Shown here piece by piece: positions 2,901-42,200 of a stretch of 42,200 nucleotides of DNA. The notes under the pieces are model-generated. The model searched no databases. It was given only the letters and a program-made list of their open reading frames with translations, and was not told the DNA's origin. Numbering within the stretch: position 1 is the stretch's first letter; each line of letters opens with the position of its first letter. The translations under genes and the position numbers were made by a program. Location of the stretch: assembly GCA_027459705.1 (NCBI GenBank), contig DAIDHM010000228.1, positions 1-42,200 of the forward strand, read 5' to 3'. The DNA is from Ktedonobacteria bacterium. GTDB taxonomy: Bacteria; Chloroflexota; Ktedonobacteria; Ktedonobacterales; JACDGC01.

Positions 2901-5096
2901 GTGCCTACCACCATCCCACTACGCGAAATCGTTCACCTGACCGAGCAATTACTCGTGTCACGGCGTCCGAATGATGCGTTGCGGCGATGCGATGTGTTAT
3001 TGGCAGCCAATCCCCACTGGCTGGAGATTAAGCGCATTAAAGCTGAGGCAATGATCGCTCTCAATCAGCCAGTTCCCGCCTTGGAGATCATTGATCATCT
3101 GCTCGCCTGTGATCCCGAGATGGCGCGTGCGTATGTATTGCGCGGATGGATCATGCGGCAACAAAATGATCTTTTGGGGACACTGGCCTGCTTACGACGC
3201 GCCTGTGAATTGGCGTCAAATGATGAAGGGTTGCGCAACAGACATGACGAGTTGGCGGTGAGTCTACATCGCCCCCCATATTCGCCTTCGCATACTGGCC
3301 TGGCGCGCATGTACGTGCGATCCGAACTCTATCAACATGCGGTGCGCGAATGGGATACAGCGTTGCGGGCGAATCCTCACCGTATCGACGCGCAGATCGG
3401 TATCGCCGAAACGTTCTGGTGTATGGGTGAGACGAAGCGCGCCATTCCTATCTGCCTCGCAATTCTGCGAACTTATCCTGATTGCCTCAAACCACTGTTG
3501 CTGGTCGCGGTCGATAATCTGCACCAGGGGCAGCGCGATCGTGCCCAGGCCGCCCTCTTTCACGCCAGTCAGCTCGATCCAGATATGCGCGCCGCCGGCG
3601 AACTTTTCGCAAATCAGGTCGCTGCTGGTGACACTGTTTTAGCCAGTTGGTTGCGTGACGCGGCAAAGGCTGTCTATAATTTATTAGCACCCGTCATCAC
3701 CCCTAACTTTACTCCGCGCGACACGCATCCGCCCGCGCAATCCTCCGCCCAGCCATCTCCGCGTACATATTTAACTGACCCGCTACCGCAAGGCAAGGCA
3801 CCTACCGGGCCACTCTTTGCAACCAACAGACCGAACACTTCCCCATTGGAACCCACCAGCAAATTGCCACCACTAACTCCCCAGTCCATGCTCGGTGCCG
3901 ATCAAGATGGGGACTTCTTCAGTCGGTCACGCACGTCGATGTTGCCTGATGATTTCCAGAGAATCTTTGACGAATCGCGGAACATCCTCTGGCGCGATGA
4001 TCACCAAGCCGAGAATGGGCAATCCACTGACCCTGTCGATACGCACGAGACTACCAGCGAAGCCACAGATCCGCCCGCGAGCAAAGAAGAACTCGACTAT
4101 GTGCGGTGGTTGCAATCGCAAGGGGCACAGGCCATCGAGGAAGATCCTGCCGAGCGATCAGTGATACAGCCTGTCGCGCCACCACCGTTTCTCCTCGACG
4201 CGCTGCGACAATCCGCTTCCCCAGAACAGGGGATCCCCGCTTTACCCCCGGTCATCCCACTGGAAGTTTCCGCGCCTTCCGCTCCCGTGAGCGAACCGCC
4301 GCAACCACTGGTGCATGGCAACATGGAGGAGCGCGCGCCGCTCGTTCCACAGCCACCAACCGCACAGGGTACAACTGCTGAGGGAGAAGCGCACTTGTCA
4401 ACCTCAGTAGCTAGTGAGCGTTGGGCCGAGAGCGAACCAGCAGTACCGGTGGCTTTGCCACCGATGGTGCCACCCCCACGCTCAGACGAAGGGCATGAAG
4501 CCACTCGGCCCCCCCTGCCGGTGGCGGATCCATTGCCCCCGCCTGATCCCGATGTAGCTGCACCGGTCAGCGTCTGGCCAGCTCCCCCCACTACCGTTGA
4601 ACAACAGCCCGCTAACGTATGGCCAGGCGCGCCTGAACCTGATGAACCAGTCCATCCAGCTGCGGCGGCCGCACCTGTGACATCATTACCAGCCGAGCAA
4701 ACACTCACTATCGAAGCGATCGAACAAGGGTTATCGGCGATCGGCTTTGCGCGTCACGAGACAGGACGGTTGGCGACCGTAGCTTCATTGCTGCACGACG
4801 CCGAACCATCGCCTGAAGTTATCGATCCAGATATTCATGTCCGCTTAGCACGCGCGCGGCAGTTACGTCATGCTGGCCAGATGTCCGAGGCATTAGGTGA
4901 ATATCGCACCGCTGTCAAGGCGCAATCCGATGCGTTGCCCGACGTCATCCGCGCGCTGATGGACGCGGCGATTGAACACCCCCAGGAGCCTGAACTCCAA
5001 CGACTGCTGGGAGATGCCCATATTCGTATGGGCAACTATGTTGAGTCTCTAGAAGCCTACAATCGCGCCAGTGCGCTGGGTCAAGAGGGCAGTTGA
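2901..5096 (+). CDS. TPR-domain protein with proline-rich linker
   Basis: I choose the GTG at 2901 (731 residues): AAGGAG at 2888-2893 is well spaced, while the in-frame extension to 2820 has no ribosome binding site and untypical sequence. Residues about 1-245 are helical TPR-like repeats (for example DPEMARAYVLRGWIMRQQND, and NPHRIDAQIGIAETFWCMGE). About 250-600 is a low-complexity Pro/Ala/Glu-rich, probably disordered linker. About 615-731 returns to TPR-like repeats (ELQRLLGDAHIRMGNYVESL). No signal peptide or membrane segment is seen, so it is probably a cytoplasmic scaffold. Its stop TGA overlaps the ATG of the roadblock/LC7 gene by one base, implying translational coupling and a shared complex, possibly regulating a small GTPase. 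The precise function is unknown. Confidence 0.85.
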   Translation: MPTTIPLREIVHLTEQLLVSRRPNDALRRCDVLLAANPHWLEIKRIKAEAMIALNQPVPALEIIDHLLACDPEMARAYVLRGWIMRQQNDLLGTLACLRRACELASNDEGLRNRHDELAVSLHRPPYSPSHTGLARMYVRSELYQHAVREWDTALRANPHRIDAQIGIAETFWCMGETKRAIPICLAILRTYPDCLKPLLLVAVDNLHQGQRDRAQAALFHASQLDPDMRAAGELFANQVAAGDTVLASWLRDAAKAVYNLLAPVITPNFTPRDTHPPAQSSAQPSPRTYLTDPLPQGKAPTGPLFATNRPNTSPLEPTSKLPPLTPQSMLGADQDGDFFSRSRTSMLPDDFQRIFDESRNILWRDDHQAENGQSTDPVDTHETTSEATDPPASKEELDYVRWLQSQGAQAIEEDPAERSVIQPVAPPPFLLDALRQSASPEQGIPALPPVIPLEVSAPSAPVSEPPQPLVHGNMEERAPLVPQPPTAQGTTAEGEAHLSTSVASERWAESEPAVPVALPPMVPPPRSDEGHEATRPPLPVADPLPPPDPDVAAPVSVWPAPPTTVEQQPANVWPGAPEPDEPVHPAAAAAPVTSLPAEQTLTIEAIEQGLSAIGFARHETGRLATVASLLHDAEPSPEVIDPDIHVRLARARQLRHAGQMSEALGEYRTAVKAQSDALPDVIRALMDAAIEHPQEPELQRLLGDAHIRMGNYVESLEAYNRASALGQEGS

Positions 5097-5440
5097 TGGA
5101 GCATTTCTTACGGGGCTTTTTTGAGATCGATGGCGTCACAGGAGCTTTGCTCATCGATAAAGATGGATTGATCATTGCTAGCGCACTCGATCCAGCACGC
5201 GCGGAGATGCATGCCGCGCAGGCCGCCACCGCCTTCGATGGTTGCGCGGCCTATGCGTCCCAGATCTCACCCGGTTCAGCACGTATGGTGACCCTGGAAA
5301 CAGGAACGCATGCCATCCTCATCGCCGCAGCAGCCGATCTGCTCATAGTCGTCGAAACGAGCGCGAATACGCAACTTGGCCACCTGCGTCTGGAAGCCCG
5401 GCGAGTTGCCGCGGCGATCACCAATCATCTACGTGGGTAG
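5096..5440 (+). CDS. Roadblock/LC7 domain protein
   Basis: The 114-residue product is a single roadblock/LC7 domain: an N-terminal helix, the strand-turn element GALLIDKDGLIIAS at about 17-30, a central helix and a C-terminal helix (LGHLRLEARRVAAAITNHLR). Bacterial members such as MglB dimerise and act on Ras-like GTPases or on cell polarity and gliding regulators. The ATG at 5096 shares its A with the TGA stop of the TPR gene; a TTG at 5093 is also possible but the ATG is preferred. No GTPase gene is present in the window, so the partner is either the TPR protein or encoded elsewhere. The stop codon is only about 20 bases before structured RNA copy A. Confidence 0.85.
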   Translation: MEHFLRGFFEIDGVTGALLIDKDGLIIASALDPARAEMHAAQAATAFDGCAAYASQISPGSARMVTLETGTHAILIAAAADLLIVVETSANTQLGHLRLEARRVAAAITNHLRG

Positions 5441-5460
5441 CAGAGTGTACCTTGTACGGA

Positions 5461-5817
5461 TAGCCCGTGAAGCCGCTGTGCCTTTAGACCTTGCGGAGGA
5501 AAGGGCTTGCGCTGGCTTTTGCCAGAGACTACACGCTGGACCGATAGGCAATCGTGTGGTACCCTGATTGGGAAGTCCGGAGAAAACCGAATGGTCCGGC
5601 GCCTAGGCGCAAGCCGAAGCAAGACCATCCTCACGGATCGGTGGGACTTCAAGCATACCTCCTTGCTGTACGGTCGGGCAGACCGGAACAGCCTGGTCTT
5701 GCACCAGGGAAACGCTTGGGGAGAGAGGGGCGGCTGGCATCGGGGTGTGAGTTCCGATGGTAGGCCCACTGGTTGAACCAAGAATCCGCCACGGCTTCAA
5801 CCTGTGCGGAGTGTCAA
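5461..5817 (+). ncRNA. HEARO / IscB-type omega RNA-like structured RNA, copy A, standalone
   Basis: About 355 nt with no credible protein frame, sharing ordered blocks with the minus-strand element at 24778-25103. The shared blocks are a 5' pseudoknot-like element with CCGTGAAGCC and a nested CCGC/GCGG helix (5463-5506), a GAAGTCC/GGACTTC helix (5572-5578 with 5644-5650), the identical 17-mer AGGCGCAAGCCGAAGCA (5605-5621), GAAACGCTTGGGGA (5709-5722), a CATCGG/CCGATG hairpin (5738-5743 with 5754-5759) and a 3' GAACCAAGAATCC hairpin ending GTGTCAA. The end resembles IS200/IS605-type right ends. HEARO RNAs are the guide-carrying omega RNAs of IscB nucleases; there a guide sits 5' of the scaffold, here about 5441-5460. 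No iscB or tnpB is adjacent: ndk follows. A TnpB-type RNA is the alternative. Family call is by eye, not by covariance search. Confidence 0.8.
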
Positions 5818-5855
5818 AGCATACAATAGCAGTAGGCTGGCTTTTGCCACACTCT

Positions 5856-5908: not shown

Positions 5909-6322
5909 ATGCGCGAGCGCACGCTGATTATTGTCAAACCCGATGGCGTGGAGCGGGGCCTCAGTGACCAGATCCTTGAACGGTTTACTGCCAACGGCTT
6001 CACAGTGGTGCAACGTAAAGAGATGACCATCCCGCGTTCCCTGGCAGAGCAACACTACGCTGAGCATGTTAACAAGCCATTCTTTCCCAGTGTGGTCAAT
6101 TATATGACTTCTGGTCCAGTCGTCGTCGCCATTCTGGAAGGTGAGGATGCGGTCGCGCGGGCACGCGCCTTGATGGGTCCAACCGATCCCGCAAAGGCGA
6201 CACCGGGTACGATCCGCGGCGATTTTGGGGAATCCATCGATCGCAACACCATTCATGGGTCAGACTCCGCAGAGTCCGCTCAAAGGGAGATACATCTTTT
6301 CTTTGGTGAGAACCCCAACTGA
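5909..6322 (+). CDS. ndk: Nucleoside diphosphate kinase
   Basis: The 137-residue product transfers the gamma phosphate of ATP to nucleoside diphosphates through a phospho-histidine. It starts RTLIIVKPDGVERGL (with Lys10 of the KPD motif) and carries the active-site block NTIHGSDS with catalytic His116, followed by AESAQREIHLFF. Length is typical of short bacterial Ndk. I choose the ATG at 5909, with AAGGAG at 5894-5899; the in-frame extension to 5804 runs into the 3' end of RNA copy A and is not family-like. The gene sits between RNA copy A and a G.U-containing hairpin at 6331-6360, so it is probably transcribed alone or from read-through of the roadblock unit. Confidence 0.97.
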   Translation: MRERTLIIVKPDGVERGLSDQILERFTANGFTVVQRKEMTIPRSLAEQHYAEHVNKPFFPSVVNYMTSGPVVVAILEGEDAVARARALMGPTDPAKATPGTIRGDFGESIDRNTIHGSDSAESAQREIHLFFGENPN

Positions 6323-6330
6323 TCTCATCG

Positions 6331-6360
6331 CTGGGCGGCGCACGAGGTCACGTCGCCTAG
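6331..6360 (+). terminator. Stem-loop downstream of ndk, between convergent genes
   Basis: CTGGGCGGCG (6331-6340) pairs with CGTCGCCTAG (6351-6360) around a 10-base loop. The two imperfect positions are G.U pairs in plus-strand RNA but A/C in the other strand, so it is tuned to the ndk transcript. It overlaps the stop of the convergent minus-strand gene. There is no long U-run. Confidence 0.6.
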
Positions 6361-6644
6361 CGTTCATTCGCGGGTTGTGAAGATGATTCCGCCTGTGGGG
6401 GGCGCTTGGATTGGTTGGTCTTGCTCTGGACCAGGCGCCAGCAGTGAGTGGGGCTGTGCAAACATTGTTCTTGCTCTTCGTGTGACGTTGGAGGCGTATT
6501 GAGACAACAATACACTTGATAGAGGGGCTCACCCGCACGCGTATCACTATCGGCGGGCCAGCGTACGCGATAATTTGGACATCCCGTACGGTAAGTGCGC
6601 CAATCCAAGCTGGTGCGTGGGTCGTTGCGCAGGCCTTCTGTCAT
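6357..6644 (-). CDS. Small cysteine-rich conserved-looking protein, function unknown
   Basis: With the ATG at 6644 this is 95 residues. An AAGGAG box (in minus-strand sequence) lies 11 bases before this ATG; another in-frame ATG nine bases upstream would be too close to it. The protein has a compact aromatic and cysteine-rich core, CPNYRV (Cys22), YQVYCCLNTPP (Cys46-47), EQCLHSPTHCWR (Cys61, Cys68), then a polar Gln/Ser/Lys tail. The spaced cysteines suggest metal binding or a small disulfide fold; there is no signal peptide. I do not recognise a named family. It is convergent with ndk and divergent from the CPBP gene. Protein-like composition and a good ribosome binding site support it as real, with moderate certainty. 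Confidence 0.6.
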   Translation of the reverse strand: MTEGLRNDPRTSLDWRTYRTGCPNYRVRWPADSDTRAGEPLYQVYCCLNTPPTSHEEQEQCLHSPTHCWRLVQSKTNQSKRPPQAESSSQPANER

Positions 6645-6824
6645 GATTGTCATAGCTCCTTGATCGGCCAACATCACTGTCGGCGTCGTAGCAATCCCCA
6701 CCTGGATAACGACCTGAACACCGATAAGCGTATTATAACACAACTTATAGCAAGGCATCGCGTACCGAACGGCTCGTTAGATGGGCTGTTCGCTTCATGT
6801 CGCAGACAGAAAGCGATCGACAAC

Positions 6825-7625
6825 ATGCAACCACCACGCGTATCCCCGCCTGCTGGGGAGCTTCCTCCGTCACCAGTCGTGGAGAGTGAACCAGATATTG
6901 CACTATGGACGTGGCGTGATACTCTGGTGGGCACGCTGGCGACCCTCGTCCCCTTAGTGCTGCTGAATCTACTCTTGAGCGGCACGAACGGGGGCGCCGC
7001 GACACAGGTGCAGCAATTGAACGCATTCCAGGACACCATCGCCGCAATTGTGCAATTTGTCTTCACGACAGCATTGGAAGCTGTTTTTCTGATTGCTCCG
7101 CTCATCTATGCCCTACGTCGGCATGGACAATCAAGGCTACGGAGCTTAGGATTTCGACCGACGAATGCTTGGATGTCGTTGATACAGGTCGTCATGGCCA
7201 TGGTAGTCACACTGGTCTTCGGATATCTTTATACCTTGATCGCGCAAAAGTTGACTGGCATGGCCCCAACCACAAACCTGGATCAGCTATTGAAAGAAGT
7301 ACGCCTCGCACCGCGAACTATTCTGGCATCGGGTATCGTCGCGACGCTCTTTGCGCCAATTTTTGAAGAAATCTTCTTTCGCGGTTATTTGCTGCAGGGA
7401 TTGCGCCTAGTGCTTTCCGATTTTTGGGCGGTTTTCATTTCCGCGGCAGTCTTTGCAATCGTCCATCTGAGTCCTGGTTCGACAATCCTCCTCTTCATCC
7501 TGGGACTGATCCTCGGATACCTGCGAGTCACCACGCGCTCTCTCTGGCCAGGAATAGCTTTGCATGCACTGAACAACGCGCTGGGCCTGGTACAGATCAT
7601 CCTGCTCATCGCATCATCTCATTAA
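6825..7625 (+). CDS. CPBP family intramembrane glutamic protease
   Basis: The 266-residue product is a polytopic membrane protein with the three ABI/CPBP motifs: EEIFFRG at 181-187 (Glu181-Glu182 and Arg186), FAIVHLS with His214, and ALHALNNAL with His247 and Asn251. These residues form the metal-independent active site of Rce1-type intramembrane proteases. A 30-residue proline-rich cytoplasmic tail precedes the first helix. I use the ATG at 6825 because the protein character begins there; the frame stays open upstream to 6516 but that part looks untranslated, and the ribosome binding site is weak. A HAD phosphatase gene follows after 15 bases, so the two are probably cotranscribed. Substrate unknown; bacterial members process peptides or maturation partners. 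Confidence 0.88.
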   Translation: MQPPRVSPPAGELPPSPVVESEPDIALWTWRDTLVGTLATLVPLVLLNLLLSGTNGGAATQVQQLNAFQDTIAAIVQFVFTTALEAVFLIAPLIYALRRHGQSRLRSLGFRPTNAWMSLIQVVMAMVVTLVFGYLYTLIAQKLTGMAPTTNLDQLLKEVRLAPRTILASGIVATLFAPIFEEIFFRGYLLQGLRLVLSDFWAVFISAAVFAIVHLSPGSTILLFILGLILGYLRVTTRSLWPGIALHALNNALGLVQIILLIASSH

Positions 7626-24777: not shown

Positions 24778-25103
24778 TGACACTCCCCCGGCTCAAGCAC
24801 GGGGGATTCTTGGTTCAAACCAGCGTGCTTACCAGCCAGGCTTACGCCTGACTGCCAGAGGCCCGTCTGTCCCCAAGCGTTTCTCCATGTTCCATGACAT
24901 AACCGTTTCCCCGTGCCCCAGGGTACGGAAAGGAAGGATGCGATGAAGTCCGATCACCCGGTAGGGAGATAATGCTTCGGCTTGCGCCTCTCTTCGCCAG
25001 ACTTCTTTCCTATTCTCCAACCATGCTACTGGAAAGTCAAGGGCCGCGTCCTGCGGAGGGCCGTTTCATCCCCCGCTTGAAAGACCGGGGCTTTCACGGC
25101 CCT
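24778..25103 (-). ncRNA. HEARO / IscB-type omega RNA-like structured RNA, copy B, standalone
   Basis: About 325 nt read on the minus strand, homologous to copy A at 5461-5817. It begins GGGCCGTGAAAGCC, with outer helix 25096-25102 paired to 25058-25064 and a nested CCCCG/CGGGG helix. It has the GAAGTC/GACTTC helix (25000-25005 with 24945-24950), the identical 17-mer AGGCGCAAGCCGAAGCA (complement at 24973-24989), GAAACGCTTGGGGA, a nine-bp hairpin with GTAA loop (24846-24854 with 24833-24841) where copy A has a different six-bp helix, and a perfect 3' TCCCCCG/CGGGGGA hairpin before GTGTCA. Helices conserved despite sequence change argue for a functional RNA. A guide, if IscB-type, would come from about 25104-25123. 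No nuclease gene is adjacent. Confidence 0.82.
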
Positions 25104-25111
25104 TTCCTGTA

Positions 25112-25130
25112 AGTGCCATGCTATGGCACT
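25112..25130 (-). terminator. 8-bp perfect hairpin at the end of the Ycf48-like gene
   Basis: AGTGCCAT (25112-25119) pairs with ATGGCACT (25123-25130) across GCT. It spans the Ycf48-like stop codon (25121-25123) and lies just outside the 5' end of RNA copy B, so part of it would be in that RNA's putative guide. Confidence 0.5.
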
Positions 25131-38473: not shown

Positions 38474-39199
38474 ATGTCTCGTCTCATGTCAGGAGCTATC
38501 ACTGGCGTCGTTGGCGCCATCCTTCTGGTAGTGCTCTCGATACTCCAGGTGGGTTTCGTAGGAATTTTGGTCGTGCTCATCGTTGGTGTTGTCGCCGGGA
38601 TTCTCGTCGCAAGGAATCCACGCTTCGCGGGGCGTACGGGTGGTGCGGGAGCAATCGCCGGCTTGATCGCTGGGGCATTCCTGGTGGTTGGTTCAATCAT
38701 CTCGGCAGTGCTATTCGCTAATTCGCCAGCATCTCAAGGTGCTATTAGTTCGGCGGTTCAAACTGCGCAGGCAACCATCACCGTTGGGAATGGTAATTCT
38801 ACCCCAGATGTCACCGGCACAATCCAGTCAGCAGCCAACATAGCTAGCGCCTTTCTTGGTTGCTTAGTTGGCTTATTCGCCCTCGGCGTGTCGACCGGGT
38901 TGGGCGCGATCTCCGGGGCTATCGCCGGAAGAAATACTCAGCAAGTGGTCGCTGGCTATCCCAATGCTTATCCGGCATACGGGCAACCGCCAGCACCTGG
39001 CCAATATCCCCCGCAATATGGCTATCCACCTCAGCCATATTATCCAACAGCTACTCCACCACCAGCACCTGGAGGCTACCCGCCACCACAACCATATTAT
39101 CCACCCGTGTCGCCACCTCCCGCTCCTGGCGGATACCCGCCACCCACAGAGTATCCTCCGACTTCACCGTCAACTTCGCCATTTGATCCAACAAGGTAG
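38474..39199 (+). CDS. Membrane protein with Pro/Tyr/Gly-rich repeat tail
   Basis: The 241-residue product has three or four hydrophobic segments in its first 155 residues (GAITGVVGAILLVVLSIL, GFVGILVVLIVGVVAGILVA, AIAGLIAGAFLVVGSIISAV and LGCLVGLFALGVSTGLGAIS), Gly/Ala-rich as in small multi-pass proteins. From about 160 to the end it is a low-complexity tail with PPPAPGGYPPP units in near-tandem and many QPYYP elements. Such Pro/Tyr tails are typical of proteins that self-associate or bind partners; function is unknown. AAAGGGGG lies about 13 bases before the ATG at 38474. A 10-bp hairpin at 39212-39252 follows. Confidence 0.82.
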   Translation: MSRLMSGAITGVVGAILLVVLSILQVGFVGILVVLIVGVVAGILVARNPRFAGRTGGAGAIAGLIAGAFLVVGSIISAVLFANSPASQGAISSAVQTAQATITVGNGNSTPDVTGTIQSAANIASAFLGCLVGLFALGVSTGLGAISGAIAGRNTQQVVAGYPNAYPAYGQPPAPGQYPPQYGYPPQPYYPTATPPPAPGGYPPPQPYYPPVSPPPAPGGYPPPTEYPPTSPSTSPFDPTR

Positions 39200-42141: not shown

Positions 42142-42200
42142 CGGGGTGTAGCGCAGGTGGCTAGCGCGCAGCGTTCGGGACGCTGAGGTCGGAGGTTCAA
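42142..42200 (+). tRNA. tRNA-Pro (CGG), 3' end outside window
   Basis: The sequence folds as a tRNA: acceptor strand CGGGGTG (42142-42148), D-arm with GCGC/GCGC stem (42151-42154 and 42164-42167), anticodon stem CAGCG/CGCTG, and loop TTCGGGA with anticodon CGG (42176-42178), which reads CCG proline codons. A five-base variable loop AGGTC and the T-arm start GGAGGTTCAA follow. The window ends inside the T-loop. Confidence 0.95.

Follow-up and report, generated by a model that had tools for sequence, protein, structure and literature searches.

A solo omegaRNA element between roadblock and ndk genes in a Ktedonobacteria genome: a probable promoter-driven, trans-acting guide gene of IS605 type

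The window, the whole 42,200-nt stretch of DNA that was analysed, comes from a 4.6-Mb draft genome (95% complete) of a Ktedonobacteria bacterium; the 10–14-Mb genomes of the order belong to another family. A discrete, structured, non-coding element, called element A or, among its relatives, copy A, was located at 5458–5817 (+). It lies between the stop codon at 5440 of a Roadblock/LC7 protein gene (5096–5440, +, PF03259) and the start at 5909 of the nucleoside diphosphate kinase gene, ndk (5909–6322, +, PF00334). We describe it as a guide-only IS605-type element composed of a left end (LE), a predicted promoter, an omegaRNA gene, and a right end (RE). No RuvC/HNH or transposase gene was found inside it. 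It has no ORF of its own; the reading frames within it were mechanical only, and a protein-coding role for them was rejected. An earlier note had reported a structured, non-coding element lacking such genes at this place, and this stands, with the ends now at 5458 and 5817. Elsewhere in the window, two tandem repeats of 57 nt (77% identical, 39026–39139) apparently encode a proline-rich repeat, and a tRNA gene (42142–42200) is truncated by the window end.

The relative G002 provided the comparison with an allele lacking the element that the earlier note had proposed. This genome has the same TPR-roadblock-ndk order with an empty site, and its intergenic region is 109 nt long. The roadblock-ndk region of the window measures 111 nt when element A is subtracted. 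Therefore, element A is an insertion. Its 3' end adjoins TACAAT, the likely −10 box of ndk.

Element A was used as a query against its own genome and matched 42 places. Its left end recurred beside genes for IS605 transposases, its right end downstream of tnpB; on contig C131 the order was LE, tnpA, tnpB, RE. The left end with its hairpin (5458–5527, +) was 88–89% identical to the LE of tnpA-bearing elements on C131 and of contig-end copies. Thus the genome contains a tnpA-bearing element that has both LE and RE in common with element A. Near-identical IS605 left ends were also seen near many contig ends of this genome (L008–L027). Full-length IS605 copies therefore broke the draft assembly, and the true copy numbers are higher than those seen.

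The omegaRNA core and RE (5666–5817, +) were homologous to the 3' end of tnpB together with its RE and had the same structure. This part contains a hairpin (5666–5691), the core helix (5715–5719/5778–5782), the apical hairpin of the core (5736–5761), the terminal RE hairpin (5786–5809), and the terminus GTGTCAA (5811–5817), all on the plus strand. The conserved ACGCTTGGGG stands about 100 nt before this terminus in element A and in tnpB-borne omegaRNA alike. The claim of a solo guide-type RNA with an IS605-like 3' hairpin is thereby borne out, as core and ends match those of tnpA/tnpB-bearing IS605 elements. No distant matches to the element were found on plasmids and phages.

Immediately before the left end, most copies carry TTAC, and so did each type III copy that was checked. 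For the family, insertion was on the 3' side of this fixed short target, the site being otherwise empty; copy A itself has GTAC at this degenerate target/TAM position (5454–5457, +). The flank 3' of the RE was different in every copy, those of type III that were checked included. In TnpB omegaRNAs the guide is the 3' flank (PMC8612924). Because the ends and core are those of tnpA/tnpB IS605 elements, element A is read as a TnpB-type omegaRNA whose guide is predicted at 5818–5837 (+; AGCATACAATAGCAGTAGGC, containing TACAAT at 5822–5827), not in the bases 5' of the element, where the earlier note had placed it for the case of an IscB-type RNA. No second target with TTAC was found in the genome for this guide; one other match with three mismatches had no TTAC.

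Guide-only elements of this kind were about 330–375 nt each and coded for no protein. In the genome of element A, 13 standalone copies or fragments were found first and one more by covariance model, giving the about 14 that confirm an earlier expectation of further copies. Copy B lies in the window itself, in a convergent intergenic gap (24778–25108, −), with TTAC at 25109–25112, the predicted promoter TTGACT-17-GAGAAT at 25012–25040, and a 5' domain starting at 25005, all on the minus strand. More standalone copies were present in the same-family genomes G002, G003, and G004, and when the exact type I pattern was compared with 84,980 species genomes, only three MAGs matched, which were these three. 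Standalone copies in G003 (L074, L099) were observed just downstream of −10-like boxes (TGTGGTACAAT, TGTGGTATACT). Copy A is upstream of such a box, and a preference for promoters is possible.

Two covariance models were used across genomes. At the loci checked, the model of the 5' part (R1) scored standalone elements above about 57 bits and tnpB-borne ones below about 42. Its search revealed two further types, type II in G002 and, in a second family (G006, G043, G045, and G036), type III. Searched against 400 Chloroflexota genomes, the model of all three types (R2) matched 29, each of them in the class of the window; clear standalone copies scored at least 95 bits, and the remaining matches were a mix of tnpB-borne and divergent loci. 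Among the loci flagged as having no TnpB are a few that are partial or of another kind, and L176, a type II solo copy, was wrongly flagged as having TnpB. G006 contained 11 standalone copies, most of them near-identical, and at least one full TnpB element whose core was the same. Those checked had TTAC and a different flank each. Near-identity, TTAC, and differing flanks together point to recent movement. The guide-only family is a previously unlisted one, spread within one class of soil bacteria. Two divergent standalone omegaRNAs (L134 in G007:C52 and L136 in G035:C392) had different 5' regions and near-consensus promoters (TTGACA-17-TATACT and TTGACC-17-TATAAT, respectively); more types of standalone omegaRNA likely exist.

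The promoter predicted in element A is sigma70-like (5537–5565, +), with TGGACC at 5537–5542, a 17-bp spacing, and TGG-TACCCT, whose −10 hexamer is at 5560–5565. It is weaker than that of most copies and, taken alone, was no better than in shuffled sequences (p 0.25). Across the type I copies, the best plus-strand promoter match was at the homologous place in 16 of 16, with the −10 ending 6 nt before GAAGTC. The spacing was 17 in 15 copies and 18 in one, and with both strands considered the site ranked first in 15 of 16. The old −35 of copies A and C30 was moved away by an 8-nt insertion, and a replacement −35 stands at 17 bp (TGGACC and TGGACA, respectively). Type II and most type III copies have a predicted promoter at the same place, up to TTGACA-17-TATACT. 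The sigma70 matrix scan found no fixed promoter site in the tnpB-bearing controls. The fixed promoter in type I copies is strong but not conclusive evidence of a working one, because the copies are related, so that the 16 matches are not 16 independent events, and the matrix is our own approximation.

Downstream of the promoter is a standalone-specific 5' RNA domain (5572–5650, +), closed by helix H1 (5572–5577 with 5645–5650) and including a GGC-GCAA-GCC hairpin (5606–5615, +). It was not found in any tnpB-bearing element examined. The RNA of element A is predicted to start at about 5572, and a standalone RNA starting at H1 would begin with GAAGTC or ATGAAGCC. RNAalifold on the 16 type I copies predicted the H1-closed 5' domain, two more hairpins, a core helix topped by the apical hairpin, and the hairpin of the RE. 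The covariation score in these copies was 0.362, compared to 0.141 ± 0.011 for shuffles and at most 0.078 for slid controls. Compensatory change was seen in 23 of 54 RNA pairs, and 94.6% of cells pair. Helix H1 covaries across types (GTC/GAC, GCC/GGC, GCT/AGC, and ACC/GGT), not within type I. Single-sequence folding of element A was weak alone (z = −1.6); the structure of the element family is far beyond chance.

For a solo guide RNA, a nuclease acting in trans would be the natural reading. The genome search for IscB and TnpB genes proposed earlier was positive for TnpB and negative for IscB. Contig C91 carries an intact TnpA (132 aa) and an intact TnpB; C131 carries an intact TnpB and a TnpA with a stop. 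The intact TnpBs have the D-E-D residues. Compared with the omegaRNA of C91's intact tnpA-tnpB element, the core of copy B showed 96% identity, and the cores of copies B and C31 together showed 94–96%. The closest tnpB-borne core came from the own host family in 24 of the 25 standalone copies tested. Furthermore, core motifs were family-specific, being CGCTTGGGG with CCAAG in one family and CGCTTCTGG with GGAAG in the other. This match would be expected of a standalone RNA that has to suit the TnpB of its host; common descent, or recombination with local elements, would yield it as well. Nearly all genomes of the class (46 of 47) have TnpB genes, and finding them in a given genome is therefore of little weight as evidence. 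For G003, standalone copies were the only loci with the exact core motif, and no partner nuclease was found.

We consider it likely that these loci are promoter-driven, trans-acting guide genes carried on IS605-type elements that borrow both TnpA and TnpB. In the sequence, this reading is backed by the element ends, the TTAC target, the absence of nuclease and transposase genes, the covariation, the promoter conservation, and the core match to the omegaRNA of the resident TnpB. From them we infer mobilisation in trans, transcription, TnpB binding, and cutting, in the following manner. TnpA from a full-length IS605 element would move the guide-only element in trans and place it next to TTAC. 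The omegaRNA made from the internal promoter would have its 5' end at helix H1 and extend across the right end into the genomic flank 3' of the element, which would be read as the guide. A resident TnpB would bind the standalone omegaRNA in trans and cut the TTAC-plus-flank junction remaining after excision of the element, and repair would restore the element. Judged by every feature tested, the guide-only family is to be placed among both the IS200/IS605 non-autonomous elements and the TnpB omegaRNAs.

The condition of copy A is a separate matter. It deviates at 12% of conserved positions, C30 at 14%, and the others at 0–6%. That copy A alone is an inert relic, a dead fossil that is no longer transcribed, is a real but minority possibility, compatible with trans-acting guide genes as the explanation of the family. 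Its deviations, its weak promoter, and the GTAC at the TTAC position speak for this. One core pair is also broken. However, 49 of the 54 pairs are retained by copy A in the alignment, H1 is intact in its own register, and the homologous promoter was kept through the shifted −35 after the insertion common to C30. We read copy A as an old, partly decayed member of uncertain activity, which may be transcribed and has probably lost its own TAM.

The family as a whole could instead consist of deletion derivatives of PATE or MITE kind, that is, tnpA/tnpB transposons that lost their interior and retained the ends required by TnpA. Their omegaRNA would be functionless and carried along because it overlaps the right end. 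IS605 PATE-like elements with a piece of tnpB and an RE are known, for example, in Halanaerobium (PMC7290912), the cores of copies B and C31 are close to that of the C91 element, and mobility alone would account for the ends and TTAC. Yet the promoter and 5' domain are common to two families of the class and have no counterpart in tnpB-bearing elements, so the copies hold more than remnants of a parent element. The compensatory change is also strong in internal helices that TnpA does not need. We regard this explanation as unlikely.

Far less probable is a host-domesticated regulatory RNA, in which the RNA or the insertion of element A would control ndk, possibly with a nuclease-dead relative of TnpB. 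Element A was indeed inserted directly upstream of the TACAAT of ndk, and its guide would cover this box. Against this, G002 has no orthologous insertion in the same gene order, the guide has no second genomic target, the copies lie at unrelated loci, and copy A is decaying.

The identity given in the earlier note, a HEARO/IscB omegaRNA with its guide on the 5' side, did not survive. In the window, Rfam gave no HEARO match at the gathering score, nor when E was relaxed to 10. The whole genome gave 0 matches to HEARO (RF02033), and the identical search was above cut-off in 31 of 61 relatives. An RRXRR/IscB gene was absent from the draft genome, which is 95% complete, and present in 32 of 61 relatives. 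The positive controls thus worked in relatives, and no Rfam family scored above its gathering score for element A or any of types I–III. Matches to RAGATH-13 and sR40 in the window were sub-threshold and were dismissed as chance. The resemblance to HEARO is a general one, that of a guide-type RNA with an IS200/IS605-like end, and HEARO copies are abundant in relatives within the same order; but the ends and core are common to tnpB elements, the guide-like variable flank adjoins a TnpB-type right end, and within the sensitivity of the covariance model this reading is refuted. By-eye HEARO labelling of omega-like RNAs near IS605 ends is therefore unsafe.

We lean, with more reserve, towards the wider view that the trans-acting guide genes form a long-lived lineage of mobile guide-RNA genes living off the transposase and nuclease of IS605 elements, with guide and nuclease genes uncoupled and at least ten trans guides per TnpB. 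If so, each copy would bring its own promoter and a new guide at every landing site. Guide and nuclease would then have come apart naturally, a step that CRISPR systems took too, and the lineage would be a case of parasitism on a transposase and a nuclease both. The family makes it testable how TnpB picks among many guides in a cell. Furthermore, it offers compact natural omegaRNA genes with defined 5' ends.

Altae-Tran and colleagues in 2021 reportedly described standalone copies of HEARO, the IscB guide RNA, in K. racemifer. Guide-only elements and HEARO (RF02033) are alike in being guide RNA loci without a nuclease gene in the same bacterial class. They differ in RNA family, in nuclease, and in the side of the guide, which is opposite. 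IStrons, which join a group I intron with IS605 or IS607 (PMC4227781), are another RNA-bearing variant of these transposons; unlike them, element A has no intron. Two group II introns were observed in relatives. In L235 (G030:C577, minus strand), an ORF-less one (Rfam RF00029, 52 bits; about 4180–4900 of the reverse complement) seems to interrupt the RuvC-III motif of an IS607-type tnpB (DRDENAAV / NILAKA...), its first bases being GTGCG. The omegaRNA core follows shortly downstream, and the element has a serine-recombinase TnpA and a TnpB. Splicing of this intron would restore TnpB; the intron is either the group II equivalent of an IStron or one that inserted there by chance. In L234 (G045:C1:1406000–1414500), a related intron (RF00029, 58 bits; about 6240–7000) appears to split the hairpin just before the omegaRNA core (...GGGCAGACAGG / intron / AACGG...), and the sequence directly upstream holds no TnpB gene.

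There are publications on PATEs that carry guide RNAs and on standalone IscB RNAs. In the literature searched for TnpB with standalone, trans, or non-autonomous guides, nothing closer than the PATE-like element of PMC7290912 was found. Like the IS200/IS605 TnpB omegaRNA or reRNA of ISDra2 and relatives (PMC8612924), element A has core hairpins, a right-end terminus, a variable 3' guide flank, and a target motif before the LE. Known TnpB omegaRNA is cut by TnpB from its own mRNA (PMC10278001). In contrast, element A lacks tnpB, and where the coding region would stand it has a dedicated promoter and 5' domain. Like IS605-type PATEs (palindrome-associated transposable elements; PMC7290912), the guide-only elements are short, lack tnpA and tnpB, and were presumably moved in trans. 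PATE-like elements have been described as ends-only deletion products (PMC7290912). The guide-only elements are more than plain PATEs because of their promoter and 5' domain; unlike PATEs, they carry a structurally constrained RNA gene with a promoter, in three types and two families. TnpB omegaRNAs and PATE-like transposons are already known, and the dedicated promoter, the 5' domain, and the class-wide lineage appear to be new.
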